From an uncultured Gammaproteobacteria bacterium (GTDB lineage: Bacteria; Pseudomonadota; Gammaproteobacteria; GCA-001735895), in the NCBI GenBank assembly GCA_937894085.1, contig CALCSG010000457.1, positions 1-36,617 of the forward strand: a DNA stretch of 36,617 nt, read 5' to 3'. The notes below the pieces were generated by a model. That model did not search any database. It was not told where the DNA came from and saw only the letters and a program-made list of their open reading frames with translations. Below, piece after piece: positions 532 through 15,368 of this stretch. The position numbers were made by a program, and so were the translations under genes. How positions within the stretch are numbered: the stretch's first letter is position 1; each line of letters starts with the position of its first letter.

Positions 532-579
532 CGGATAGCATTACCTATATATATGTTTATATATAGGTAATGCTATCCG
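532..579. promoter_or_regulatory. 22-bp-arm inverted repeat over the abiEi start (candidate AbiEi operator)
   Basis: Bases 532-553 and 558-579 are perfect reverse complements around a 4-base centre (TGTT, 554-557). The arms run from CGGATAGCATTACC at the outer ends to an alternating AT core. A TATACT hexamer at 521-526 could be a -10 box, which would place the repeat at the transcription start. AbiEi of Serratia is known to repress its own operon by binding inverted repeats at the promoter, so this is the natural operator candidate. The right arm contains the ATG at 570, so a transcript starting upstream would fold the start region into a hairpin. Confidence 0.75.
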
Positions 580-1199
580 TGATTAAAAGAAAATTTTCTG
601 AATCTTCTCTATTAAAAGCCAAACGTATTATTAGTCAGGGTGGAGGAGTAATCCGTACATCCGATGCTATTCGAGCAGGTATCCACCCTCGTACACTTTA
701 CGAGCTCAGGGATAAAGGAGTTCTGGAAGTTCTTTCACGTGGAGTTTACCGCTTAACCGATCAAGAAGAAATTGTAGACCCTGATCTTATCATTGTGGCA
801 AGCAGAATTCCTCGGTCAGTAATTTGCCTGATTTCGGCTCTGTCCTTCCATGAAATAACGACTCAGATTCCACATGCTATCGCTATAGCCCTTCCAAAAG
901 GAGCTGAAACTCCACGTTTGCTTTATCCACCACTTAGCGTACACCGGTTTTCAAAAGAAGCGTTGAAGGAGGGTGTTGAAGAACACCGGATAAACGGGGT
1001 AACGGTGAAAGTTTTCAACTCGGAGAAAACACTGGCAGACTGTTTTAAATTCCGTAATAAAATTGGACTGGATATAGTTCTGGAAGCACTTAAACTTTAC
1101 CGGTCAAAGGGGCAGTTTAATACTGAGAAGTTGTTGAAATATGCCAAAATCTGTCGCGTAGAAAAGGTCATGCGACCCTATCTGGAGGTTATGCTATGA
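570..1199 (+). CDS. abiEi: AbiEi-type antitoxin / transcriptional repressor
   Basis: This is a 209-residue protein with an N-terminal winged-helix region (about residues 15-65, including GVIRTSDAIRAGIHPRTLYELRDKGVLE and SRGVYRL) and a C-terminal domain containing FNSEKTLADCFKFRNKIG, a pattern typical of the AbiEi/DUF4095-like antitoxins. In type IV AbiE toxin-antitoxin systems, AbiEi counters the toxin without binding it and represses the operon. The stop overlaps the abiEii start (ATGA at 1196-1199), the usual arrangement. The start is uncertain: ATG 570 has only AGG two bases away, and GTG 579 in the same frame has AGG eleven bases upstream. Both lie in or at the edge of the large inverted repeat. 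Identification is strengthened by the adjacent toxin. Confidence 0.88.
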   Translation: MLSVIKRKFSESSLLKAKRIISQGGGVIRTSDAIRAGIHPRTLYELRDKGVLEVLSRGVYRLTDQEEIVDPDLIIVASRIPRSVICLISALSFHEITTQIPHAIAIALPKGAETPRLLYPPLSVHRFSKEALKEGVEEHRINGVTVKVFNSEKTLADCFKFRNKIGLDIVLEALKLYRSKGQFNTEKLLKYAKICRVEKVMRPYLEVML

Positions 1200-2098
1200 A
1201 AGGTCAAAAAAATATAGCAGCTTCTGTTCGGCAACGCTTACTAAATCTGGCTAAAGGCGAGCATCGACCATTCAATGAATTGCTTCAGTATTACGCAATG
1301 GAACGCTTTTTATATCGTTTATCTAACTCTGCATATTCAAAGAAGTTTATTCTTAAAGGTGCGTTGATGCTCAGAGTCTGGCAAGCGCCAGAGCATCGTC
1401 CCACCATGGATATAGATATGCTCGGAAAGGTCACCAATAACCAGCAAAGTATCATTCAAAAAATCCAGCAAATACTAATTGTTGAGGTGGATCCAGATGG
1501 TCTGGACTTTGATACAGAGTCAATACAGACTCAACGAATAACTGAAGAGGCTGACTATCAGGGAGTCAGGGTTCGGTTTAAAGGAAGTTTAGGTCAGGCA
1601 AAAATAAATATGCAATTAGATATTGGTTTTGGAGATATTGTTTACCCAAAAGCTGAAAGATCAGAGCTACCAACCTTGCTTGATAATCCTGCCCCAAGAT
1701 TACTCTGTTACAGTCGTGAAACTGCCATTGCTGAAAAATTTGAGGCCATGGTTAAGTTGGGGGTACTCAATAGTCGAATGAAAGACTTTTATGATATCTG
1801 GATGTTAGCCAGGCAATTCAACTTTGATGGTAGTGTGTTGGCTGAAGCTATTAATCTGACTTTCAAACAGCGTGATACTGTTTTAACAGAAGATGTCGTG
1901 GCTTTTCAAGAGGAATTTATTATCCAGAAGCAAGTTCAGTGGGGAGCCTTTTGCAAGCGATTAAAGCATGAGTATTTACCAATAGAATTTTTAGAAGTTG
2001 TATCACTTATTGAAAGATTCCTCAGCCCAATTGTTAAGTCTATCTGTACTGAAAAATCATTTTCCAGGCAATGGGTTGCTGCGGATAACTGGCATTAG
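1196..2098 (+). CDS. abiEii: AbiEii-type nucleotidyltransferase toxin
   Basis: The 300-residue protein belongs to the AbiEii/AbiGii toxin family (DUF1814, nucleotidyltransferase fold). Visible signatures are KGALMLRVW at about residues 54-62, the metal-binding RPTMDIDML at about 68-76 (Asp72, Asp74), and the C-terminal AIAEKFEAMVKLGVLNSRMKDFYDIW, where the family carries conserved Lys and Asp residues. Members of this family modify tRNA or other acceptors with nucleotides and halt growth, giving abortive infection against phage. The start overlaps the stop of abiEi by four bases, implying translational coupling. All catalytic motifs look intact, so the toxin is probably functional. The stop is followed six bases later by the primase-helicase start. 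Confidence 0.92.
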   Translation: MKGQKNIAASVRQRLLNLAKGEHRPFNELLQYYAMERFLYRLSNSAYSKKFILKGALMLRVWQAPEHRPTMDIDMLGKVTNNQQSIIQKIQQILIVEVDPDGLDFDTESIQTQRITEEADYQGVRVRFKGSLGQAKINMQLDIGFGDIVYPKAERSELPTLLDNPAPRLLCYSRETAIAEKFEAMVKLGVLNSRMKDFYDIWMLARQFNFDGSVLAEAINLTFKQRDTVLTEDVVAFQEEFIIQKQVQWGAFCKRLKHEYLPIEFLEVVSLIERFLSPIVKSICTEKSFSRQWVAADNWH

Positions 2099-2104
2099 AA
2101 TAGT

Positions 2105-4477
2105 ATGTCGGAGATAGATCCATTAAAACTCAATTTGCAGTTATTTAACACTGTCGAAGCCATTGATAAAAGGCTGGCTGAATTAGATCGTGATCGAGCG
2201 CTTTTAGTTAATAGAAAGCAGTTCATACTAAATCAAATTTCTGATTGTAATAGCAGCAATCCTGATAGACCTTTCATACTTTCAGTTAATCAAAAGGTGG
2301 AGATATTTAAAGGGTTGTTTAAAGGGCGATCAGATGTTTTTGCACACCGATGGGAAAACTCAAAAGGAAGAAGTGGATATTCATTTTCTTGTGAAAATGA
2401 GTGGAAGAAAGGGCTTTGTCATAAACCTAAAATAAAATGTAATCAGTGTTCTAATCGAAAGTATAATTCCCTTGATGATCAGGTTGTATATAACCACCTA
2501 AAGGGGAAACAGGTAGTGGGCTTGTATCCTCTACTCGTTGATAATACTTGCCGCCTACTAGCTGCAGATTTTGATAAGAATGACTGGATGGAGGCAGCTA
2601 AAGCAATGTCTCAGGTTTGTACACAATTTAAAGTCCCGCATGCTATTGAAATTTCACGCTCAGGAAATGGTGCTCATCTCTGGATATTTTTTTCTGAACT
2701 AGTCACGGCTAAAGATGCAAGGCAGTTGGGCTTTGGGCTGCTTGATAAAGCTATGGAAATTCACCCCAATCTATCATTTGAGTCTTATGATCGATTATTT
2801 CCTAATCAGGATCTAATGCCTGAAGGTGGTTTCGGAAACCTGATTGCTCTACCGTTGCAGTTTCATGCCAGGCAGCAGGGGAACAGTTTATTTGTTGATA
2901 ATAATTTTTCTCCTTATAAAGATCAGTGGCTGTTTTTATCACAGATAACAAGTATTTCACGCCAGGTACTGAATAATTTACTGGATCAATTGACACCTCA
3001 AACCCAGCGTTTAATAGATGATCGACCACCCTGGGAGCAAGGATTAAAACTCAGAGACGATAAAATAGAAGGTTGTCCTAAACTGATTACAGTTACGTTG
3101 GCCAATCATATTTATATCAAATTTGAGAGTTTACCGTCACTGTTGATTGCAAAATTAAAAAGATTAGCCAGCTTTTCTAATCCAGTGTTTTTTAAAACTC
3201 AGGCACTGAGGTTCTCTACTCATGGGATTCCAAGGTATATCACTTGTGCCCACATTGAGCAGGGCTATTTATCATTACCCCGAGGTTGCTTTGATGAAGT
3301 GGTTGAATTGCTTGAAGAGCAGAATGTTAAACCTGTTATTGATGATAGACGACAGTCGGGTCAAACACTAACTTCATTAAAATTCCTAGGAAAGTTAAAA
3401 AATGAACAATTGAAAGCTGTTAGGGTTATTGTAAAACATAATACCGGGGTATTACATGCCCCTACTGCGTTCGGGAAAACAGTTGCTGCAATAGGCGTTA
3501 TTTATAGGCGTAAAGTTAATACGTTGATTTTGACTCATAGTCGGCAGCTTCTGGAGCAGTGGCAGGAGCGATTGCAATCTTTTTTAACAGGAGTCGAAAT
3601 AGGGGTTATTGGTGGTGGAAAGAGGAAACCAACGAGTCAGATAGATATTGCAACCTATCAAAGTCTCATCAATAAAAAAGACAACTCAGTTGATTTATTA
3701 ATTCAGGATTATGGACAAGTAATTATAGATGAATGTCATCACATCTCTGCCCCACGATTTGAAATGGCACTTAATGAAGTACGTGCAAAGTATGTACTGG
3801 GTTTAACGGCTACTCCAGACAGACAAGATGGACACCAGAAAATAATTTTTATGCTTGCTGGTCCCGTGCGATGTAAAGTGAAACAGGATCACGCTGAAAA
3901 ATTTGTACAGAAGGTGATGGTTACTCATCTAAACCATCAGCCACCAGAAGCTTTTGTCAGTGAAGATGCAAGACCTCACATATCAGATGTATATCGATGG
4001 TTAACAGAAAATATAAGTCGTGCTCAGAAAATTGTAGATGATGTGGTCGAGAGAGTTACTGAAGGTAAAACTCCTTTAGTGTTGACAGAGCGTCGGGAGC
4101 ATGCTGATCTTATCCATCAATTACTGGTGGATAAAAAAATAAAGACAGTTGTATTACGAGGAGCAATGCGAGCTAATGAGCGCAAGTCTGCAAATAATTA
4201 TCTAGCCGAAACTCAGGTAGTTGTTGCGACAGGTAAATATGTTGGAGAAGGATTTGATATGCCAAGACTGGATACTCTTTTTCTCGCTTTGCCCATAGCC
4301 TGGAAAGGTTCTCTGGCTCAGTATGCGGGTAGAATTCATCGTGAGCTAGAGGGTAAAAGCCTGGTCACTATCTATGATTATGTTGATACATCACTTCCAA
4401 TGCTTAAAAGAATGTTTCTGAAGCGGGAGAAAGGCTATAAAGCCATGGGGTATCAAATAAGTTTCGTTAATAAATAA
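2105..4477 (+). CDS. TOTE-type archaeo-eukaryotic primase fused to SF2 helicase
   Basis: The protein has 790 residues. After a coiled-coil-like N-terminus (about 12-47) comes a primase domain of the TOTE conflict-system type (about 65-290): four cysteines (C96, C105, C112, C115) likely bind zinc, ADFD (154-157) gives the DxD metal motif, SGNGAHLW (186-193) holds the catalytic His, and SYDRLFPNQD and GGFGNLIALPLQ follow. From about 430 a superfamily 2 helicase starts: APTAFGKT Walker A (452-459), DECH box (542-545), GLTATP motif III-like segment (566-571), and a C-terminal lobe with GEGFDMPRLD and QYAGRIHRE. Nucleic acid remodelling and primer synthesis in a conflict or replication-linked role is inferred from the family. 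The start lies six bases after the AbiEii stop with no clear ribosome binding site, so translation is probably coupled. No nuclease domain is evident. Confidence 0.88.
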   Translation: MSEIDPLKLNLQLFNTVEAIDKRLAELDRDRALLVNRKQFILNQISDCNSSNPDRPFILSVNQKVEIFKGLFKGRSDVFAHRWENSKGRSGYSFSCENEWKKGLCHKPKIKCNQCSNRKYNSLDDQVVYNHLKGKQVVGLYPLLVDNTCRLLAADFDKNDWMEAAKAMSQVCTQFKVPHAIEISRSGNGAHLWIFFSELVTAKDARQLGFGLLDKAMEIHPNLSFESYDRLFPNQDLMPEGGFGNLIALPLQFHARQQGNSLFVDNNFSPYKDQWLFLSQITSISRQVLNNLLDQLTPQTQRLIDDRPPWEQGLKLRDDKIEGCPKLITVTLANHIYIKFESLPSLLIAKLKRLASFSNPVFFKTQALRFSTHGIPRYITCAHIEQGYLSLPRGCFDEVVELLEEQNVKPVIDDRRQSGQTLTSLKFLGKLKNEQLKAVRVIVKHNTGVLHAPTAFGKTVAAIGVIYRRKVNTLILTHSRQLLEQWQERLQSFLTGVEIGVIGGGKRKPTSQIDIATYQSLINKKDNSVDLLIQDYGQVIIDECHHISAPRFEMALNEVRAKYVLGLTATPDRQDGHQKIIFMLAGPVRCKVKQDHAEKFVQKVMVTHLNHQPPEAFVSEDARPHISDVYRWLTENISRAQKIVDDVVERVTEGKTPLVLTERREHADLIHQLLVDKKIKTVVLRGAMRANERKSANNYLAETQVVVATGKYVGEGFDMPRLDTLFLALPIAWKGSLAQYAGRIHRELEGKSLVTIYDYVDTSLPMLKRMFLKREKGYKAMGYQISFVNK

Positions 4478-4705
4478 AACTTGATGGGAGGTATGAATTT
4501 CTAAATATTCTTGAAAACCAGACAATGGACTATTTTGTATGATCACTGGTTTTGTCGGGCTAAGATATTTTTGAAATGGCACTCTAAATTCACAAAAATA
4601 CTTTCACAAAAAAGTTCTGTAAGTGACTGAAATTCATTCAAAAAAATAGTAGTTTTTCACAAAATAAATATGCCTAAGTTATTGAGAATTAAAGAATGTG
4701 TCATG
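4478..4705. other. Gene-free right margin of the att-flanked element
   Basis: No convincing gene is seen between the helicase stop and the second tRNA-derived repeat. A weak 8-bp inverted pair (4514-4521 and 4546-4553, loop 24) is present, but it lacks a T-run and may be chance. The segment is very AT-rich, as expected near an attachment site. Confidence 0.5.
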
Positions 4706-4756
4706 GACTTGTAATCAGTAGGTCCCGTGTTCGATTCATGGTGCCTGCACCACTTT
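4706..4756 (+). repeat. Direct repeat copy 2: 3' part of tRNA-Thr, putative att site
   Basis: It matches 229-279 at 50 of 51 positions. Unlike copy 1, the 5' strand of the anticodon stem is missing: the match begins at the GA just before the anticodon loop, so homology starts right where tyrosine-integrase crossover in tRNA sites often occurs. The acceptor end reads GCCTGCACCA, one base off the copy 1 version. To its right the core chromosome appears to resume. Confidence 0.88.
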
Positions 4757-4811
4757 TTCCTGAAATAGAAATCTATTTACTTAAATTTAATAGTAAATAC
4801 AGTTAGTTTTA

Positions 4812-6389
4812 TTAAACAATACCATCCATATCCGTTGTCCTGATTTCTCTGGATGTCTGACTCTTACCATTGTCTGGCTTATAACAACTTTGTTCACGTG
4901 GGCAAATTGCACCTCTGGAACAGATTAATCTGGCATCACTTTCTATGCCCCTTTCTATCCAGGCGATATTTAATATTCTGGCTACGCGGGTGAGATCTGC
5001 TTTTATTTTTTTAGGAATTGCGGTAAATCCTCCCTGTTCAACACAGGTATTCTTTAATTCAGCAGCAAGAGACAGCGAATCCAGTCCCTGCGCTTCTATC
5101 GCCGGGTTTAAATCTATGCCGGCACATAAAACATGATTAGTGCCGGTTATGTCTTTAACCCTGGTGGATTCGCAACAGTAAATTCTGGGTTCATCACCGA
5201 CGTTAAGTATTGATATCTGTGCGGAAGTACCTGGTGCCGGGTTATTCAATTTACGGAATACCGACCAGTGCTGGCAGGGATCCTCGACGGCTCGCATATT
5301 GCCCCAGGGTAAAGGGATGCCATTGCCACGATACACGGCTTTAAATTTTCCGGCTGCATAGGCATCAAAATAATGCCAGTGAGGGTAGGGGGAAACGGCT
5401 GTCATGCGCCGCATGGCGACGGATGTGCTGGTATCAGCATATTTGCTGACAGAAACTTCATTTCCATGGCGATCCAGTAACTGACGAAAAGGTACTTTTG
5501 GGCAGAGCAGGGCGCCGGCAAAGAAGCTGCACTCAAAGTCCCGCCAGGCATACAGAATTTCCTGCGGATTTACGTCGGAAGAACAGTTTCCATCCGGGTA
5601 ACCGGCAGAGTTGTTTTCCGGCTGGTTGCTACCAGCAATCAGGACGCTTTTTAACCCATCCTTATCGTGTAATACACAATGTCCAATATGCACGGATAAG
5701 TCGTATTTAAGCCGTTTAGGATATGATTTGAGTATTTCATTGACATAGATCGTAGCGGGAGGGGTGAAGAATGAGCTGACAAGACCATCCGGGTTACAGC
5801 TGTTTGCCTGAGCTATTTCGGCAGGTATTTTATCAAACCATTTGATCTCCAGGCCATGTTGACGGGTGATTGCCATGATGTCTTCAAGGTCCAGAGGTAA
5901 GCGTTTTAACCCGACTTCTTCAGCCGCTCTTTCAAGATCCGGAAAGTGGTTCTGATGGTGCTCCTGGTGTGCTCGAATCAACAGTTGCGCAAATTGTCTG
6001 CCGGTAGTTCCGGTTTGGGTGAGCATTTCCGGGATGGCAATTTGCAATATCTCGCTGGAAAACAGGAAACCGGGTTCGAGTGGCATGCCAAAAACTCCAC
6101 CGCGACTTCCTTTAGCCGGTGCTATTGCAGTTTCTTCGGGAGCATCATCCAGAAACCAGCCCGGCTGTTTTTGAAATACGCTGGCAATAACCTCAATAAT
6201 TTCACGGCTGGGTACGCGCTTACCGCGTTCAATCATCGACAGGTAGGAAACCGAAGGCGCCGCCTCTGCATTAATTCGCATACAGCGTGCAGAGAGATCT
6301 TCCATCGTCAGGTGGTTGCTTTTGCGTAGGTTTCGGATTTTAGTTCCGAGAAAATAGGATTTTCTGAGCAGGTTTCCACTGGGAGTCAT
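4812..6389 (-). CDS. RamB/ScfR-like XRE-family regulator of acetate/short-chain acyl metabolism
   Basis: The 525-residue protein begins with an XRE helix-turn-helix (about 14-75, with PSVSYLSMIERGKRVPS as the recognition region). It continues into an IrrE-like domain (about 150-260) and a long C-terminal DUF2083-type region ending in a Cys-rich segment, CSRGAICPREQSC (about 487-500). The position equivalent to the HExxH zinc-protease motif reads VHIGH, lacking the catalytic Glu, so the domain probably senses instead of cleaving. Homologues such as RamB control isocitrate lyase and malate synthase genes, and both enzymes are encoded divergently next door. No clear Shine-Dalgarno sequence precedes ATG 6389; a leaderless message is possible. 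Three phased TGTAAAATT repeats abut the start and suggest autoregulation. Confidence 0.87.
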   Translation of the reverse strand: MTPSGNLLRKSYFLGTKIRNLRKSNHLTMEDLSARCMRINAEAAPSVSYLSMIERGKRVPSREIIEVIASVFQKQPGWFLDDAPEETAIAPAKGSRGGVFGMPLEPGFLFSSEILQIAIPEMLTQTGTTGRQFAQLLIRAHQEHHQNHFPDLERAAEEVGLKRLPLDLEDIMAITRQHGLEIKWFDKIPAEIAQANSCNPDGLVSSFFTPPATIYVNEILKSYPKRLKYDLSVHIGHCVLHDKDGLKSVLIAGSNQPENNSAGYPDGNCSSDVNPQEILYAWRDFECSFFAGALLCPKVPFRQLLDRHGNEVSVSKYADTSTSVAMRRMTAVSPYPHWHYFDAYAAGKFKAVYRGNGIPLPWGNMRAVEDPCQHWSVFRKLNNPAPGTSAQISILNVGDEPRIYCCESTRVKDITGTNHVLCAGIDLNPAIEAQGLDSLSLAAELKNTCVEQGGFTAIPKKIKADLTRVARILNIAWIERGIESDARLICSRGAICPREQSCYKPDNGKSQTSREIRTTDMDGIV

Positions 6390-6391
6390 TT

Positions 6392-6428
6392 TGTAAAATT
6401 CACACTGTAAAATTTTAATTGTAAAATT
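6392..6428. promoter_or_regulatory. Three TGTAAAATT repeats with 14-bp spacing (candidate operator)
   Basis: The nonamer TGTAAAATT occurs at 6392, 6406 and 6420, exactly 14 bases apart, immediately upstream of the minus-strand regulator start and about 160 bases before the malate synthase start. The regular phasing suggests an array of protein-binding sites in the shared divergent promoter region. The likely binder is the adjacent XRE regulator, though this is only inferred from position. Confidence 0.5.
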
Positions 6429-6583
6429 ATAGTGAAAAACTATTTACACTGCAATGCAACAATTTGATTCAATGGAGTCAGGCGGGTCAGAAAAAGACCT
6501 TCAGAAGTTTGATTGGATACCAGCTGAAAGGTGAAAAATCGCTGGATCATATATAACCGCTAAAGTGTATTGAGGATGAAAAA

Positions 6584-8758
6584 ATGAATTTGCCAATTCA
6601 GAAGAGCTATCAGATTAACCAGCAGTTTTACAACTTTATTAATGATGAAGTGTTACCGCAGCTTTCTGTTAATCAAAACAGGTTCTGGAATGACCTTGAA
6701 ATGCTGATTGAAGAGTTGACGCCGGTTAATCAGCATTTGTTGCAAACCCGTAACCGTTTGCAATCAGAGTTAAATGACTGGCATCAGCAACATCGGGCGG
6801 AAGATTTTGATGCACAGCTATACCAGAACTTTTTAACAGAAATTGGCTACCTGGTAGCAGAGGGAGAGGATTTTGAAATACAGACGAGTAAAGTTGATGA
6901 GGAAATCACCAGCATTGCCGGGCCGCAGTTGGTGGTGCCGCTTAAAAATGCACGTTTTGCGTTAAATGCAGCAAATGCACGCTGGGGCAGTTTGTATGAT
7001 GCATTATATGGCAGCGATGTTATTCCTCAGACTGATGGTTTAAAAGTAAGTAAACAACATAACAAGGCACGTGAATCACGAGTCATTCACTACGCCAAGG
7101 ATTTTCTGGATGAAGTATTTCCATTGAACTCCGGGTCTCATCATGACGTCACCAGTTACGTGGTTTATTTTAACAATTTATTGGCATTTTTTGCGGATGG
7201 CTGTTCGACCGGGATATGTGACCCTAAACAGTTTGTCGCATTATGCGGTCATAAAAGTGAACCCAGCTGCATTGTTTTAAAAAATAATGGGCTTCATGTT
7301 GAAGTTCAAATAGATCGTAGTCACTTTATTGGGGCAAATGATCTGGCCGGGGTAAGTGATATTAAGGTGGAAGCGGCAGTAAGCACGATTATGGATTTTG
7401 AAGACTCCATTGCTGCAGTTGATGCTGAAGATAAAGTTGAGGTCTATCGTAACTGGTTAGGTTTGGTAGAGGGAAATCTTGAAGCCGGTTTTCAGAAAAA
7501 TGGCGACAATATAAAGCGAAAATTAGCCAAAGACCGAAAGTACACTTCAAAAGAATCCGGAGAGTACCGTTTACACGGCCGATCATTAATGCTGGTGCGC
7601 AATGTTGGTCACCTGATGGACACAGAATTAATGCAGGATACGCAGGGAAATAACGTGCCAGAAGGGATTGTCGATGCAGTGGTGACGGCGATGATCGGAT
7701 CACTGGATCTGAACCCTGACAAAGACTGTCATAATAGCCGGACTGGCAGTATTTATATAGTTAAACCGAAAATGCACGGCCCTGAAGAAGTCGCTTTTAG
7801 CTGTCTGTTATTCAGCCGGGTAGAAGACATGCTGGGGCTTGAGCGAAATACCTTAAAGCTCGGCATTATGGATGAAGAACGACGAACTACGGTCAACCTG
7901 AAAGAATGTATTCGTCAGGCTAAAGATCGCATTGTATTTATTAATACTGGCTTTCTTGATCGGACCGGAGATGAAATTCATACCAGTATGCAGGCTGGCC
8001 CCTTTCTTCCAAAAGCGCAAATCAAGCAACAGCCGTGGATCCAGGCTTATGAAGATAACAATGTAGATATAGGGCTGAAATGCGGATTTCCGGGTAAGGC
8101 TCAAATTGGTAAAGGGATGTGGGCGATACCGGACGAAATGCAGGCCATGATGTCACAAAAAATTGAACATCCGATGGCGGGTGCTAGTACAGCCTGGGTT
8201 CCATCACCAACGGCAGCCACTTTACATGCACTGCATTACCATAAAGTCGATGTGTTCAGCCGCCAGCAGGAATTACAGGAAAGAGAGAATGCCAGTCTAC
8301 AGGACATTCTGACCATTCCTCTGTTAACAGACCGAGCTAGTTTGAGCGCGGATGAGATAAGTAAGGAACTGGAAAATAACATTCAGGGCATTCTGGGTTA
8401 CGTGGTGCGCTGGGTCGAACAGGGTGTCGGCTGCTCAAAAGTGCCAGACATCAATAACATCGGTTTGATGGAGGATCGGGCAACGTTACGTATTTCCTGT
8501 CAGCATATCAGCAACTGGTTACTGCATAAGCTGTGCGATGAAGCACAGGTAGTGGACATAATGCAGCAGATGGCCGCTAAAGTTGATAGCCAGAATCAGA
8601 ATACACCCGGGTATATTCGAATGACCCCTGATACTGAAAACAGTCTCGCGTTTAACGCCGCCCGTGAACTTATTGTGAAAGGGTGTGAACAACCAAACGG
8701 TTATACCGAGCCGCTGCTGCATAAATATCGCTTATTAGCGAAGAGTCGTAAATGCTGA
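6584..8758 (+). CDS. glcB: Malate synthase G
   Basis: The 724-residue length equals the usual malate synthase G length. It condenses glyoxylate with acetyl-CoA to give malate in the cytoplasm, the second step of the glyoxylate shunt. Diagnostic segments are present: GIMDEERRTTVNLKECI (catalytic Arg), FINTGFLDRTGDEIHTSMQAGPF (Mg-binding Asp region), GVGCSKVPDI (the reactive Cys), and MEDRATLRISCQHI, which carries the catalytic Asp near residue 630. A GAGG ribosome binding site lies about nine bases before the ATG. It stands upstream of isocitrate lyase on the same strand, 66 bases away, so the two are probably co-transcribed under the divergent RamB-like regulator. Confidence 0.96.
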   Translation: MNLPIQKSYQINQQFYNFINDEVLPQLSVNQNRFWNDLEMLIEELTPVNQHLLQTRNRLQSELNDWHQQHRAEDFDAQLYQNFLTEIGYLVAEGEDFEIQTSKVDEEITSIAGPQLVVPLKNARFALNAANARWGSLYDALYGSDVIPQTDGLKVSKQHNKARESRVIHYAKDFLDEVFPLNSGSHHDVTSYVVYFNNLLAFFADGCSTGICDPKQFVALCGHKSEPSCIVLKNNGLHVEVQIDRSHFIGANDLAGVSDIKVEAAVSTIMDFEDSIAAVDAEDKVEVYRNWLGLVEGNLEAGFQKNGDNIKRKLAKDRKYTSKESGEYRLHGRSLMLVRNVGHLMDTELMQDTQGNNVPEGIVDAVVTAMIGSLDLNPDKDCHNSRTGSIYIVKPKMHGPEEVAFSCLLFSRVEDMLGLERNTLKLGIMDEERRTTVNLKECIRQAKDRIVFINTGFLDRTGDEIHTSMQAGPFLPKAQIKQQPWIQAYEDNNVDIGLKCGFPGKAQIGKGMWAIPDEMQAMMSQKIEHPMAGASTAWVPSPTAATLHALHYHKVDVFSRQQELQERENASLQDILTIPLLTDRASLSADEISKELENNIQGILGYVVRWVEQGVGCSKVPDINNIGLMEDRATLRISCQHISNWLLHKLCDEAQVVDIMQQMAAKVDSQNQNTPGYIRMTPDTENSLAFNAARELIVKGCEQPNGYTEPLLHKYRLLAKSRKC

Positions 8759-8830
8759 ATTGAATAAAAATACCGCCTTCTCTGTAGAAGCCAATTATTA
8801 AAAAGTCGATTATTAAAAACGAGGATGAAT

Positions 8831-10432
8831 ATGTCTAACTATAAAACTGAAATGAGTCAAACGAGTAACTTTATCAATCAACAGGGAGAATCATGGAGAG
8901 CGATAAATCCTGAATATGTGACGCGCATGCGCTTACAGAATCGTTTTCAAACAGGTCTGGATGTGGCCAGATACACTGCAGGTATTATGCGCGAAGATAT
9001 GGCTGCCTATGATGCTGACTCATCTCAGTACACCCAGTCACTGGGCTGCTGGCACGGTTTTATCGGTCAGCAAAAGATGATCTCTGTGAAGAAGCATTTC
9101 GGCACCACAAAAAAGAGCTACCTGTATCTTTCTGGCTGGATGGTGGCTGCCCTGCGTTCTGAATTCGGGCCCTTACCCGATCAGTCTATGCATGAAAAAA
9201 CAACAGTTGCCGGCTTGATCGAAGAGCTTTACACCTTCCTGCGTCAGGCTGACTCTCGTGTACTGGGTGGCCTGTTCCGAGAGCTGGATGCTGCGCGTAA
9301 AGCCGGTGATAACCTTAAGGAACAGGATATCCAGAATCAAATCGATAACTTCGAAACTCATGTTGTGCCGATAATCGCTGATATTGACGCCGGCTTTGGT
9401 AACGCTGAAGCGACCTATCTGATGGCAAAGCAAATGATCGAAGCAGGTGCCTGCTGCATTCAGATCGAAAACCAGGTTTCTGATGAAAAGCAATGTGGTC
9501 ACCAGGATGGAAAAGTAACTGTGCCGCACGAAGATTTTCTGGCAAAAATAAATGCTGTTCGTTATGCCTTTATGGAGCTGGGTGTAGATGATGGTGTAAT
9601 TGTGGCGCGTACCGATTCACTGGGTGCCGGACTGACCAAGCAAATCGCTGTCACCAACGAGCCGGGCGATATAGGCGATCAGTACAACAGTTTCCTGGAT
9701 GTTGAAGAAGTAACGCCTGAGACTATGAAAAATGGTGATGTTGTGATTAATCGTGATGGAAAACTGGTACGCCCGAAGCGTCTTGCCAGCAACCTGTTCC
9801 AGTTCCGTTCGGGTACTGGCGAAGACCGTTGTGTGCTGGACTGCATTACTTCACTGCAAAACGGTGCGGATATGATCTGGATCGAAACTGAAAAGCCGCA
9901 CATCGCTCAGATCGGTGGCATGGTTAATCGTGTCCGCGAAGTAGTACCGAATGCCAAACTGGTTTATAACAATTCTCCTTCGTTTAACTGGACACTAAAT
10001 TTCCGTCAGCAAATTTTTGATGCATGGAGTGAAGAGGGTAAAGATGTTTCTGCTTATGACCGTGACAGGCTGATGAGTGTTGATTACGATGATACAGAAC
10101 TGTCAATCGTTGCTGATGAAAAGATTCGTACCTTCCAGGCTGATTCATCCCGTGATGCGGGTATCTTCCATCACCTAATTACACTGCCAACTTACCACAC
10201 TGCTGCACTGTCTACTGACAACCTGGCCAAAGATTATTTCGGCGATCAGGGTATGCTGGGTTATGTACTGGGTGTTCAGCGTAAGGAAATTCGTGAGGGT
10301 ATCGCCTGTGTTAAGCACCAGAATATGTCAGGTTCTGATATCGGTGATGATCACAAGGAATACTTTGCCGGTGATGCAGCGCTGAAAGCGGCTGGTGAAG
10401 ACAACACCATGAATCAGTTTGCCAATATTTAA
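8831..10432 (+). CDS. aceA: Isocitrate lyase (long form)
   Basis: It cleaves isocitrate to succinate and glyoxylate, feeding the malate synthase encoded just upstream. The protein is about 533 residues, matching the long subfamily known from Pseudomonas (about 530) and not the 434-residue E. coli enzyme. The signature KQCGH (KKCGH in the short form) carries the catalytic Cys and sits in the segment starting DEKQCGHQDGK; DIDAGFGNAEATY is the conserved metal-binding region. I chose the ATG at 8831 over the one at 8825 because the GAGGA ribosome binding site at 8821-8825 overlaps the earlier codon and is correctly spaced for the later one. A hairpin terminator follows. Confidence 0.95.
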   Translation: MSNYKTEMSQTSNFINQQGESWRAINPEYVTRMRLQNRFQTGLDVARYTAGIMREDMAAYDADSSQYTQSLGCWHGFIGQQKMISVKKHFGTTKKSYLYLSGWMVAALRSEFGPLPDQSMHEKTTVAGLIEELYTFLRQADSRVLGGLFRELDAARKAGDNLKEQDIQNQIDNFETHVVPIIADIDAGFGNAEATYLMAKQMIEAGACCIQIENQVSDEKQCGHQDGKVTVPHEDFLAKINAVRYAFMELGVDDGVIVARTDSLGAGLTKQIAVTNEPGDIGDQYNSFLDVEEVTPETMKNGDVVINRDGKLVRPKRLASNLFQFRSGTGEDRCVLDCITSLQNGADMIWIETEKPHIAQIGGMVNRVREVVPNAKLVYNNSPSFNWTLNFRQQIFDAWSEEGKDVSAYDRDRLMSVDYDDTELSIVADEKIRTFQADSSRDAGIFHHLITLPTYHTAALSTDNLAKDYFGDQGMLGYVLGVQRKEIREGIACVKHQNMSGSDIGDDHKEYFAGDAALKAAGEDNTMNQFANI

Positions 10433-10523: not shown

Positions 10524-10549
10524 ACGATTGGCACCAATCGTAATTTTTT
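10524..10549 (+). terminator. Rho-independent terminator of glcB-aceA
   Basis: A 7-bp stem (ACGATTG / CAATCGT) with loop GCAC is followed by AA and six T residues. It ends at the stop codon of the convergent kinase gene (10548-10550), so the two transcription units meet end to end. Confidence 0.7.
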
Positions 10550-12920
10550 ACATACTCTTAATCGCCAATATGGCCTGGTTCCGTAAAGTTTTAAGCAGAC
10601 TAAGCTGGTTATCTGAAATGGCAATACTTTTTGCCTGTGTGCTGTCAATGTAAATAATGGCAATGGGACTGTGTTTAATGACGATAGGAAAGAGCACAAA
10701 AGATTTTGAGCTGATTTTCCGGTGATACCAGGCCGGAATTTTATCTTTTATTTTGGCATCCTGAGTATCATCAATTCTAATATCTACATTATTTTTAAAC
10801 GCAATATGAAAAACATCCGGCTGATAAGCCAGTGGAATGAGAAAGTTTTGAGTGAGAGACTCTATGTCTTCCCCGTAACCGAATTTTCCCTTGATACAGT
10901 TACTGGGTTTGTCGCGCAGTCCAAGTAAAACGCGAGATCCCGGCAGCGCCCGATAAATAGTTTCCAGGATCATTTGCATCACCTGGTTAATGTTTACATC
11001 ATCTCCCGTCAACGTGTTGGTAATGTCCTGGATGCCATCGGTGAGTGCTTTCTCGGAGTTATATATATTTTCCTGAGTTGTTTCCTGTTCCAGTACCTGT
11101 ACGCTTTCGTCGTCACCAAATGCATTCGCGGCCTGACTTTTTTGTGCGTCAGTTTCTGTTTCATTATCTGCAGTGAGCTGTTGATAGAACTTGCTTTTAT
11201 TGAGATTAAAATTTATCAGTTTGGCGAAGCTGGTGAGCTCTTTTTGTGATGTTTCAATCAGTTTGTTGATTTTCTTCTTATCAATATTTAACGCATTATC
11301 ATATTGCTGGGTCACTTTTTCGATTGCTGCGGCATGCTTTTCTTTAGGTTGTTTTAAGACCGTACTCAAGTTGTTACTGAAGCTTGCTATGGTGCGTAAT
11401 TTATCATCAGTTTTATCAGATTTTTTAGCCAGAAATTTTTCATCAACCGGTTTCATGCTGTTAATGATTTGTTCTGGAAACCCCCATTCTTTGGCAACAG
11501 CCATACCTAGCGTGTGATAGCTGGTGCCTAATACTTTCAGTGCCGCCGTGTTTTCTTCCTGATTGTTTTGTTCTACCTGCTTATCTATTGCCTGACTCTC
11601 TTCATGCAGGTAGAAACGCACCAGTAATTTACCAAGCTGTTGCAATAATGCGCATAAAAAGGCTTCTTCATGTTGTTTAACATTATTCGAGTTAGCCAGG
11701 TCATTCGCCATGATGGCACTAAATAATGAGGTGACCGCATCTTCCATCAACTGGTTTGCCTGCATTTTATTTTGCAGATGCTCAAATAACATGAGGGATA
11801 CCGCCAGACTTTTCACAGGGTTGATGCCTAGCATCACCACCGCGCGTGAAATGGTGGAAATTTTTCCGCCGCCACGACTGTAATAAGCGGAGTTAACAAT
11901 ACGTAACACTTTATTGGTCAGTGAGATATCTTTCAGAATAGCATTAGAGACAGTGGATAAACTCTCTGTATCGCTGTTAGACGCCTTGTTTAAAATACTG
12001 ATGGTACGCGAAAAGGCAGGGAAGTCTTTTTTATGATTCATACGTCGCAATAGAAATTGCACGGTCGAGTCGGAACTGTCGCTATGATTCAGGGCATCGT
12101 TGAGTGCCAGGTTTTGTTCCAGCGCTTTTAACATTTCACCAGCGGTCTGGTAGCGATTTTCAGGATTTTTTTCCAGCGCTTTCATGATAAACGCATCCAG
12201 ATTTTCATCAATATTATTATTTTTACTGGATGGAGGAGGGATTTCCGTATTGGCAATGGCATTTAATAACTGATACACATCATCACCCTGCACAGCCCTT
12301 TGACCGGTCAGTAATTCGTAAAATATAAGGCCCAGTGAAAACACGTCGGATACAGTCTGGTGTTTATGGGTTTCAATATATTCAGGTGCCATATATTGTG
12401 GCGTGCCTGCCAGCTGCTCATTATCATCATTTTGATTTTCAGCCAGTAACGCCAGCCCGAAATCGGCAACTTTTGCCTGCCCCTGCCTGGTGATCATGAT
12501 GTTGGCGGGTTTCAGGTCACAATGAATAATGCCTTCGTTATGTGCAGCGGCTACACCGGATAAAACATCGCGCATGATGTTGAATGTTTGTTGTAGCGGT
12601 ATCTGGTTTTTTAATTGTGCATATAGATTTTCACCTTCGACATATTCCAGTACCAGGTAAGGTTCCAGAGGGTTATTGCCGACATCGTAAATAGTTACAA
12701 TATTCGTGTGTTGCAGGCGGCTGACAGTGCGGGCTTCCTGTAATAAATTTTGTATGTTGTCCTGTTGCCGCGAGTGGTCGCGTAATATGACCGATTTGAT
12801 GGCAACCTGTCGATCCAGGCTGGGATCTGTCGCCAGGTAAACAATACCCTGGGCACCTTTGCCGAGGATATCTTTAATAATGAAACGGTCTATTTTTTGG
12901 GGGAAATCGAAATCAGCCAC
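10548..12920 (-). CDS. Ser/Thr protein kinase with HDOD and GAF-like domains (paralogue 1)
   Basis: The 790-residue protein has a Hanks-type kinase domain (about 10-275): glycine loop GKGAQG (20-25), VAIK Lys42, catalytic HCDLKPAN (133-140), DFG (153-155) and GTPQYMAPE. The residue before the catalytic Asp is Cys, not Arg, so it is a non-RD kinase and may not need activation-loop phosphorylation. An HDOD domain follows (about 295-500, ISRAVVMLGINPVKSLAVS), then a linker and a GAF-like C-terminal domain (about 640-790). HDOD proteins act in bacterial signalling without the HD phosphohydrolase residues. No transmembrane segment is evident, so it should be cytoplasmic. It follows a close paralogue by 69 bases and is the last gene of a probable three-gene operon. 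Its target and signal are unknown. Confidence 0.88.
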   Translation of the reverse strand: MADFDFPQKIDRFIIKDILGKGAQGIVYLATDPSLDRQVAIKSVILRDHSRQQDNIQNLLQEARTVSRLQHTNIVTIYDVGNNPLEPYLVLEYVEGENLYAQLKNQIPLQQTFNIMRDVLSGVAAAHNEGIIHCDLKPANIMITRQGQAKVADFGLALLAENQNDDNEQLAGTPQYMAPEYIETHKHQTVSDVFSLGLIFYELLTGQRAVQGDDVYQLLNAIANTEIPPPSSKNNNIDENLDAFIMKALEKNPENRYQTAGEMLKALEQNLALNDALNHSDSSDSTVQFLLRRMNHKKDFPAFSRTISILNKASNSDTESLSTVSNAILKDISLTNKVLRIVNSAYYSRGGGKISTISRAVVMLGINPVKSLAVSLMLFEHLQNKMQANQLMEDAVTSLFSAIMANDLANSNNVKQHEEAFLCALLQQLGKLLVRFYLHEESQAIDKQVEQNNQEENTAALKVLGTSYHTLGMAVAKEWGFPEQIINSMKPVDEKFLAKKSDKTDDKLRTIASFSNNLSTVLKQPKEKHAAAIEKVTQQYDNALNIDKKKINKLIETSQKELTSFAKLINFNLNKSKFYQQLTADNETETDAQKSQAANAFGDDESVQVLEQETTQENIYNSEKALTDGIQDITNTLTGDDVNINQVMQMILETIYRALPGSRVLLGLRDKPSNCIKGKFGYGEDIESLTQNFLIPLAYQPDVFHIAFKNNVDIRIDDTQDAKIKDKIPAWYHRKISSKSFVLFPIVIKHSPIAIIYIDSTQAKSIAISDNQLSLLKTLRNQAILAIKSM

Positions 12921-12989
12921 GAGTATCTTTTTGTTGTTTTTTTTGAGTATAGTCTATACAGCCAGCAGCGTTCTGTATCCCTTAAAATA

Positions 12990-15368
12990 TTAAGAGAGAC
13001 TTTTTATCGCCAGTATGGCCTGGTTACGCAGTGTTTTCAGCAGGCTAAGTTGTTTGTCGGATATCGAGATACCTGAGGTCTGTATACTGTCGATATAAAT
13101 AACGGCTATGGGGCTGTGTTTAATCATAATCGGAAAAAGAATGAAAAACTTTGAGCCAATTTTGCGGTGAAACCATGCTGGAATTTTATCTTTGATCTTT
13201 GTATCCTGTGTATCATCAATTTTTATATCCAGATTTTTTTTAAAGGCAATATGAAATACGTCATTTTCATAACTAAGCGGTATCTGAAAATGTTGAATTA
13301 ATTCATCGATATTTTCACCATAACCAAACTTTCCCTTAATACTGTTAGTGGCCTTGTCGCGCAAACCGAGTAATACACGTGAACCTGACAGCCCCCGGTA
13401 TATGGTTTCCAGAATCATTTCAAAAACCTGGTTTAAGTTATAATCGCTGGTTAATGTGTTGGTGATGTCGGCGATACCATCAGATAGTTTTTCTTCCGAA
13501 CTTTTCTGATCCAATTCGGTGCACTCTTCATGAAAAACAAGTGCTGTGTTATCTTCATCAAAATCATCTTCGGGCTGTTGATCCTGCTCCACAGGTTCTT
13601 TGTTAGCTTCGCTGAGCTGGCGGTAAAATTGACTCTTAGATAGATTAAAATTAATTTGTTCGGCAAATTTATTCAGTTCGATAAGTGTTTTTTCAATCAT
13701 CGCTGTTACATATTTCTTATCCAGCTTCAATGCTTTGCGATAATGTGTAATCAGTTTATCGATTAACAGTTCCTGAGTTCCCACAGGTTTTTTTAAAATT
13801 TGGCTTAAGTCATTACTAAAATGAGCTATGACTCTTAATTTCTCCTGTTGTGTTCCAGGGTTGCTGAGAATACGTTTATCCAGCGGTAGCATACTGTTAA
13901 TTATCTGTTCCGGAAATCCCCATTCTTCAGCAACAGCCATACCTAAAAGCAGGAAAGAAGTGCCCAGCACTTTCATCGATGCCGTATTTTCTTTTAAGTT
14001 ATTCTGTTCAATCTGATTGTCTATCAGCAAGCTTTCTTCATGTAGATAATATCGAACCAGCATTTTTCCAAGCTGCTGTAGCATGGCGCATAAAAAAGCT
14101 TCTTCGTGATCGGTGACCTGATTTGACTTCGCCAGATCATTCGCCATTAAAGCGCTAAATAAAGAAGTGACAGCGTCATCCATCATTTTTCCTGCCTGGT
14201 CTTTGTTCTGCAGGTTTTCAAATAACATCATGGAGACAGCCATGCTTTTTACCGTGTCCATGCCGAGCATGACAACGGCACGTGATATGGTACTTATTTT
14301 TTCACCCCGATTGTAATAGGCCGAGTTAACCACGCGTAAAATCTTATTGGTTAGTGAAATGTCTTTAAGAATAGCATTGGAAACCGTGGTTAAGCTGGTG
14401 GATTCACTGCTGGTGGCTTTGTTCAGTATACTGATGGTCTGCGAAAATGCGGGGAAATCCTTTTTATGATTCATGCGCCGTAATAAAAATTGAACAGTCG
14501 CATCGGTATTCTCAGATTGATTCGCTACATGATTAAGTGCCAGAGTATTCTCAAACGCCTTGAGCATCTCTCCAGCCGTTTCGTAACGATTGTGCGGATC
14601 TTTTTCCAGCGCTTTCATGATAAGGGCATCGAGTCCTTCATCGATACTATTGTTATGGCTTGATGGTGGTTGAATCGGCACATTGGCAATTGCATTTAAC
14701 AATTGATATACATCATCCCCGTTGACCGCTTTTTGCCCGGCTAGTAGTTCGTAAAAAATTAACCCGAGAGAAAATACATCCGATACAGTCTGGTTTTTAC
14801 GTGTTTCAATGTATTCAGGAGCCATGTATTGCGGCGTTCCAAGCAACTGATCGTTGTTCTGCTGTTGTTTATTTGCCAGTAAAGCCAGCCCGAAATCAGC
14901 CACCTTGGCCTGTCCCTGTTTGGTGATCATTATGTTAGCTGGCTTCAAATCGCAGTGAATAATACCTTCGCTATGCGCAGCGGCGACACCGGAAAGCACA
15001 TCACGCATTATTTTATAAGCCTGCTGTAGCGGGATCTGGTTTTTTAAAAGTTTATCCAGTGTATCGCCTTCAACATATTCCAGCACCAGGTAAGGGTTAA
15101 GCTGGTCGTTGCCAACATCGAATATACTGACAATATTGGTATGTTGTAATTTACTGACGGTACGTGCTTCCTGCAATAAATTATCAACGTTTTCCTGTTG
15201 CTGGTAATTATCTCGCAGGAATACAGATTTGATGGCAACCTGACGTTCCAGGCTGGGATCGGTGGCCAGATAAACAACACCTTGCGCGCCTTTGCCAAGG
15301 ATGTCATTAATAATAAAGCGATTTATTTTAGATGGAAAGTCGGGTTCGAGCACAACATTATATTTCAA
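12990..15368 (-). CDS. Ser/Thr protein kinase with HDOD and GAF-like domains (paralogue 2)
   Basis: The 792-residue protein is collinear with the downstream neighbour across its full length, from the glycine loop GKGAQG (25-30), VAIK Lys47, HCDLKPAN (138-145) and DFG (158-160) through the HDOD domain (about 300-505) to the GAF-like C-terminus. The linker between HDOD and GAF is the most divergent part. All kinase catalytic residues are kept in both copies, so neither looks like a decayed duplicate. The start lies 26 bases after the stop of a thioredoxin-like gene on the same strand, which suggests an operon. Tandem duplication with retained function is the simplest history; the two may phosphorylate each other or different targets. 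Confidence 0.88.
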   Translation of the reverse strand: MKYNVVLEPDFPSKINRFIINDILGKGAQGVVYLATDPSLERQVAIKSVFLRDNYQQQENVDNLLQEARTVSKLQHTNIVSIFDVGNDQLNPYLVLEYVEGDTLDKLLKNQIPLQQAYKIMRDVLSGVAAAHSEGIIHCDLKPANIMITKQGQAKVADFGLALLANKQQQNNDQLLGTPQYMAPEYIETRKNQTVSDVFSLGLIFYELLAGQKAVNGDDVYQLLNAIANVPIQPPSSHNNSIDEGLDALIMKALEKDPHNRYETAGEMLKAFENTLALNHVANQSENTDATVQFLLRRMNHKKDFPAFSQTISILNKATSSESTSLTTVSNAILKDISLTNKILRVVNSAYYNRGEKISTISRAVVMLGMDTVKSMAVSMMLFENLQNKDQAGKMMDDAVTSLFSALMANDLAKSNQVTDHEEAFLCAMLQQLGKMLVRYYLHEESLLIDNQIEQNNLKENTASMKVLGTSFLLLGMAVAEEWGFPEQIINSMLPLDKRILSNPGTQQEKLRVIAHFSNDLSQILKKPVGTQELLIDKLITHYRKALKLDKKYVTAMIEKTLIELNKFAEQINFNLSKSQFYRQLSEANKEPVEQDQQPEDDFDEDNTALVFHEECTELDQKSSEEKLSDGIADITNTLTSDYNLNQVFEMILETIYRGLSGSRVLLGLRDKATNSIKGKFGYGENIDELIQHFQIPLSYENDVFHIAFKKNLDIKIDDTQDTKIKDKIPAWFHRKIGSKFFILFPIMIKHSPIAVIYIDSIQTSGISISDKQLSLLKTLRNQAILAIKSLS

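Follow-up and report, generated by a model that had tools for sequence, protein, structure and literature searches.

AbiE is a bicistronic toxin-antitoxin (TA) system; it confers resistance to phages and has a stabilising effect on mobile elements (PMC3985639). In S. agalactiae, abiEi and abiEii overlap by 4 nt, and AbiEi binds inverted-repeat arms of up to 23 nt (PMC3985639). Primase-polymerases (PrimPols) have been described in other settings. In Thermus, a PrimPol is encoded beside a helicase on an element, ICETh2, that is flanked by tRNA-derived att sites; this PrimPol is dispensable for replication of the element, and its deletion raises transformation 100-1000 fold (PMC7693054). A CRISPR-associated PrimPol, CAPP, is known from Marinitoga (PMC8211822; PDB 7nqd-f, 7p9j), and a domain family of archaeo-eukaryotic primases, AEP-TOTE, carries the name of the TOTE conflict systems, which are defined by TPR, OB, TBP and Effector components (PMC12458937). 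AbiE, the AEP-TOTE domain, CAPP and cis-mobilizable elements (CIMEs), which are att-flanked, lack a recombinase and stand in tandem with other elements (PMC5704250), are already known. We found no description of operons that combine a TA pair with a primase-helicase in the literature searched, which was largely without subscription journals.

We analysed a stretch of 36,617 nt, referred to here as the window. Close to its left end, a 4.5-kb cassette without a recombinase lies between tRNA-Thr fragments and consists solely of abiEi, abiEii and a primase-helicase gene. The features of this cassette are as follows.

218-282, + strand: left direct repeat, 65 nt, the left att-like site; 3' half of a tRNA-Thr(TGT), from anticodon loop to CCA
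532-553 and 558-579, no strand assigned: arms of a perfect 22-nt inverted repeat with a 4-nt spacer, spanning the abiEi start; probable AbiEi operator
570-1199, + strand: abiEi, antitoxin and transcriptional autorepressor, 209 aa (AbiEi_4 PF13338, 4e-14; PADLOC AbiEi, 1e-75)
1196-2098, + strand: abiEii, nucleotidyltransferase toxin with a DID motif, 300 aa (PF08843, 4e-48; PADLOC AbiEii, 4e-98)
2105-4477, + strand: primase-helicase, 790 aa (Pfam AEP-TOTE PF22548, 7e-101; ResIII, 2e-24; Helicase_C, 7e-07)
Within the primase-helicase: N-terminal coiled coil, Cys-rich element, CAPP-like PrimPol (AEP-TOTE) domain at residues 63-291, XPB-like SF2 helicase at residues ~430-761
4695-4759, + strand: right direct repeat, 65 nt, the right att-like site; second 3' half of tRNA-Thr, with one acceptor-stem change

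The trio forms one tight operon. All three genes lie on the same strand, abiEi overlapping abiEii by 4 nt and the primase-helicase starting 6 nt after abiEii in the ORF listing; abiEi has an alternative start, GTG, at 579. The ATG of the primase-helicase lacks a Shine-Dalgarno sequence (preceding sequence ...GGCATTAGAATAGTATG). A preliminary description of this DNA had given the coordinates, the overlap, the gap and the lack of a clear ribosome binding site correctly, and its proposal of a coupled operon is supported by this layout; the inverted repeat and the pair of direct repeats had escaped it. It had also called the genes fused, a description that we reject, since they are three separate ORFs.

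The first two genes have the order expected of AbiE, with an AbiEi antitoxin upstream of an AbiEii nucleotidyltransferase, and share with the S. agalactiae system (PMC3985639) the 4-nt overlap, a winged-helix AbiEi, a DxD nucleotidyltransferase toxin and an inverted-repeat operator with long arms at the promoter, which in the window is a predicted site. The inverted repeat scores 20, compared with no more than 12 in 300 shuffles, and its arms are 22 nt long as against 23 nt in S. agalactiae. The arm sequence GGATAryATTACCTATAT is found again before abiEi in a second, related locus of the same genome (contig C143, below) and in the trio at locus L010. Given the inverted repeat and the match to the S. 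agalactiae layout, we conclude that the two genes make up a typical AbiE whose operator is conserved. Unlike its bicistronic counterpart, it is followed at 6 nt by a third gene, which, to judge from this spacing, would fall under the same control region.

The third gene encodes a probable active primase-polymerase joined to an XPB-like translocase, as suggested by intact motifs together with fold and sequence matches. The DxD (D155/D157), SGNGxH, Walker A (GKT, 457-459), DECH (542-545), TAT and QxxGRxHR motifs are conserved, and the named catalytic residues are invariant in 22 aligned relatives; the catalytic motifs picked out in the preliminary description, DID in AbiEii and DxD and Walker A in the primase-helicase, are all present. 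In an AlphaFold model (mean pLDDT 79; pTM 0.54, at which the placement of the domains relative to each other is unreliable), the PrimPol domain matches the fold of CAPP (TMt 0.79) and the helicase domain that of XPB (TMt ~0.6). Sequence searches agree with these folds (4e-14 for PrimPol against CAPP). Unlike CAPP, which it resembles in the sequence and fold of the PrimPol domain (PMC8211822), the window protein has its PrimPol fused to an XPB-like helicase and is without cas genes, none being detected among the window ORFs scanned; its score against the CAPP equivalog, NF040561, is 103 bits, well short of the cut-off of 200. The name "TOTE primase-helicase" in the preliminary description holds for the domain, which matches AEP-TOTE (PF22548, listed above), and belongs to that domain family only. 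We reject membership of a TOTE system: no TPR, OB (cold-shock) or TBP partner was detected in the three-gene cassette or in the neighbouring window ORFs scanned, and these are the partners by which such systems are defined (PMC12458937).

We next consider the cassette as a unit. Its left repeat is 97% identical to the intact tRNA-Thr on contig C78 of the window's own genome (G000), and the left and right repeats, 4477 bp apart, agree at 47 of 48 core positions. Att-like direct repeats derived from the target gene stand on both sides, as in a CIME, and none of the three genes between them encodes a recombinase. On contig C143 of the same genome, the repeat precedes an abiEi and a truncated abiEii, with 74.6% identity to the window over 1614 bp from the repeat through abiEii; by sequence comparison, we interpret this as a decayed second copy of the cassette. 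On contig C211, the tRNA-Thr repeat adjoins two tyrosine recombinases (the assembly comprises 567 contigs). The cassette is like CIMEs (PMC5704250) in being att-flanked and recombinase-less, and like the TA passengers of Tn3 elements (PMC7157771), where TA modules are exchanged within mobile elements. It is unlike both in that its content is the TA plus primase-helicase operon only, and its mobilisation is presumed. A search for an empty site by way of the right flank covered 39 further genomes, including 24 of the same genus or family, and found no match to the DUF3612 gene beside the right repeat, so the right flank may be foreign or the contig misbinned.

Two further trios are bracketed by tRNA sequence. 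In one (L126/L293), the trio alone lies between halves of a tRNA-Arg(ACG) 4.58 kb apart, the intact tRNA being on another contig of the same genome; in the other (L010), the trio alone lies between repeats 4.39 kb apart that contain the 5' half of a tRNA-Phe. In genome G004, where copies of tRNA-Lys form a tandem array, one of the cassettes consists of a Schlafen-type gene and a primase-helicase, and the layout of such tandem tRNA-delimited cassettes matches that of CIMEs and accretion (PMC5704250). On its contig C24 (L290, L291), one intact and at least four partial tRNA-Lys(CTT) copies delimit cassettes that hold, respectively, AbiE and an integrase, AlbA_2 and the primase-helicase, an AbiE-like pair, and VapBC. 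We rejected the idea that tRNA bracketing characterises the enzyme family as a whole: tRNA T-arm repeats were found at 3 of the 112 primase-helicase loci scanned and at 7 of 387 controls, which is no excess, and direct repeats of any kind at 16 of 75 primase-helicase loci versus 4 of 36, a difference that is not convincing. Bracketing is therefore true of particular cassettes and not of the primase-helicase family. In two relatives of the window's genome (G386, contig C3, L161; G380, contig C384, L162 and L163), several 3' or internal fragments of tRNA-Thr also stand in a row; the genes that they delimit, in the parts that were read, are metabolic ones or transposases and not defence genes.

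The preliminary description had singled out the trio as a possible combined anti-phage system. We collected 62 primase-helicase loci from a scan of 84,980 genomes, and drew in addition on an unbiased class sample in which 28 of 369 genomes carry the domain. The order abiEi-abiEii-primase-helicase recurs in at least eight further places (L010, L120, L126, L132, L037, L026, L030 and L187), three of which (L120, L126 and L132) come from the class sample; at another class-sample locus, L131, only abiEii precedes, with a 4-nt overlap. The trio at L010 has 62-66% identity to that of the window and the same 6-nt gap. That at L187, on an Arcobacter plasmid (Campylobacterota), retains both the 4-nt overlap and the 6-nt gap at 36% identity. 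The AbiEi partners span the Pfam families AbiEi_4 and AbiEi_3, with a sub-threshold match to AbiEi_1 at L132, and the antitoxin at L030 is DUF6088-like. With the window left out, AbiEii lies on the same strand and no more than 300 nt upstream at 4 of 28 class-sample loci; 0.0014 such loci would be expected from the genome-wide density (P 2e-13) and 0.12 from the local neighbourhood density (P 9e-6), the latter density being that of three AbiEii genes only. The density of AbiEii near the primase-helicase is about 86 times the genome mean. More generally, a same-strand ORF lies directly upstream of the primase-helicase at 28 of 38 sampled loci. The window enzyme has its closest relatives at L009 and on contig C207 of G369; these two are identical in DNA to each other and 87% identical to the window, and both sequences begin inside the gene. 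No full-length relative was found in 50,697 phage records.

The trio thus recurs, and other partners are nevertheless usual. The primase-helicase stands more often behind HigBA, ParDE, VapC, HipBA, TacAT, Fic, McrBC, Schlafen-type or SIR2 genes than behind AbiE; some of these names come from Pfam, PLSDB or RefSeq, and the remainder from sequence only. Many marine Gammaproteobacteria have HigBA as the partner, as do plasmids of Acinetobacter, and HigBA-primase-helicase islands have a P4-like integrase or tmRNA alongside. TacAT occurs with HigA and the Schlafen partner is of the AlbA_2 type, and we also found NYN, a zeta toxin with a small protein of unknown function, type I restriction and RtcB-PrfH upstream. 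The gene is in addition a Tn3 passenger, between resolvase and transposase, and is found before three tandem tyrosine recombinases; some copies are solitary, or divergent from their TA. On a 68-row tree of the primase-helicase, the AbiE label changes 8-9 times. Close copies differ in partner: in two Rheinheimera loci (L026 and L030), a stretch with 87.4% DNA identity begins shortly ahead of the primase-helicase gene and ends shortly past its stop codon, nothing else is common to them in 18 kb, and the upstream TA pairs differ.

These observations bear on how the trio is to be explained. The view from which the analysis started, that the enzyme is a dedicated third component of AbiE, either detecting phage DNA or intermediates of replication and switching on AbiEii directly, or serving as its effector arm, draws strength from the exact order and tight spacing in several lineages, Campylobacterota included, and from an AbiEii adjacency far above chance. 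Against this, the same enzyme family stands behind HigB, ParE, VapC, GNAT, Fic, HipA, SIR2 and McrBC, whose mechanisms are unrelated, close copies switch partner, and most AbiE loci have no primase-helicase. With one enzyme behind many unrelated TA and defence genes, the primase-helicase looks like a portable add-on and is probably not an AbiE component; that unrelated toxins replace one another as its partner speaks against a private signal between it and AbiEii. We therefore regard the dedicated three-part system as quite unlikely. Simple hitchhiking, in which TA pairs and primase-helicases are both common mobile cargo and their adjacency has no functional meaning, appears similarly improbable. 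It would account for the wide range of partners and for the strong clustering of defence genes, including the raised local AbiEii density, but the number of same-strand AbiEii genes immediately upstream exceeds even that local density, most sampled loci have a same-strand ORF directly upstream, and an identical 4-nt overlap and 6-nt gap are kept in distant lineages.

A third possibility, which we consider unlikely, is that the enzyme replicates or repairs the excised cassette, as a satellite-like replication protein, with the TA pair as an addiction module. PrimPol-helicases have been proposed to act as modules for replicating mobile elements (discussed in PMC7693054), the cassette is att-flanked, and the family has members that are carried by plasmids or Tn3 transposons or located next to recombinases. 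However, the helicase is XPB-like SF2 and not of the SF3 replicative type, many copies lie in restriction, SIR2, Cas9 or McrBC contexts without sign of an element origin, and the Thermus PrimPol is not needed for replication of its own element (PMC7693054).

The reading that we favour, to which we would give about an even chance, is that an antitoxin-autoregulated trio operon constitutes a whole CIME-like mobile cassette, the primase-helicase being a portable gene acquired repeatedly downstream of TA and defence operons. Under this favoured reading, AbiEi would bind the inverted repeat and repress all three genes, as sequence and precedent suggest, and the primase-helicase would be translated by reinitiation from abiEii. 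Depletion of AbiEi by an invader or by stress would then derepress all three genes. The XPB-like helicase might load on invading or aberrant DNA and open it, and the PrimPol might prime or extend on the exposed strand, so that establishment of the invader would be blocked; the folds, the conservation of the catalytic residues and the precedent of the Thermus PrimPol suggest this step. AbiEii, as the AbiE literature would predict, could arrest the cell if the primase-helicase fails and make loss of the cassette costly, and the cassette itself would be moved by an integrase from a neighbour or in trans. ICETh2 is like the cassette in being a mobile element with direct repeats of a tRNA 3' end and, in some strains, a TA pair; it differs in its size of 11 kb, in having its own integrase, and in that its TA pair is not AbiE (PMC7693054). 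Its PrimPol and helicase are separate genes rather than a fusion, which counts against the favoured explanation. So do those primase-helicase genes that stand alone, point away from their TA or ride in Tn3 elements, and the scan that showed no excess of tRNA T-arm repeats at primase-helicase loci.

A bolder version, which we hold to be doubtful, envisages a family of tiny recombinase-less, tRNA-delimited cassettes with a constant PrimPol-XPB-type helicase and a variable TA, in which the antitoxin operator, as an inducible switch, would gate a DNA-acting anti-invader enzyme and TA modules would be interchangeable promoters and guards for it. If true, these ideas would explain why one primase-helicase is found behind so many unrelated TA and defence genes. 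They would also make the purpose of the TA testable, with the TA regulating or guarding a third gene instead of being a poison pair alone, and would add tRNA-delimited defence cassettes as a small class that integrase-keyed searches would miss.

Other genes recur beside the primase-helicase. A SNF2-type helicase of ~800-860 aa adjoins it at L131 (5382-7853), L119, L037 and L138, and where it lies behind AbiE (L131 and L037) four-gene systems are possible. In many Proteobacteria, a small protein of ~180-190 aa overlaps the primase-helicase start by 8-20 nt (L149, 2225-2797; L154, L147, L116, L180, L188 and L189). Two copies that we scanned, from L149 and L180, have no Pfam or NCBIfam match; the recurrent overlap suggests that this protein is a conserved partner of the enzyme. 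In two Flavobacterium species (L048 and L061), a divergently oriented Cas9-like gene of 1436 aa adjoins the primase-helicase.

In the window itself, the start of a ParA-like ATPase gene lies left of the left repeat, at the contig edge (1-133, minus strand), and that side is perhaps the next element of a tandem. To the right of the cassette (4812-10432) are the DUF3612 regulator, malate synthase G and isocitrate lyase, and positions 10548-15368 encode two adjacent, similar proteins of ~790 aa, each with protein kinase, HDOD and GAF domains.
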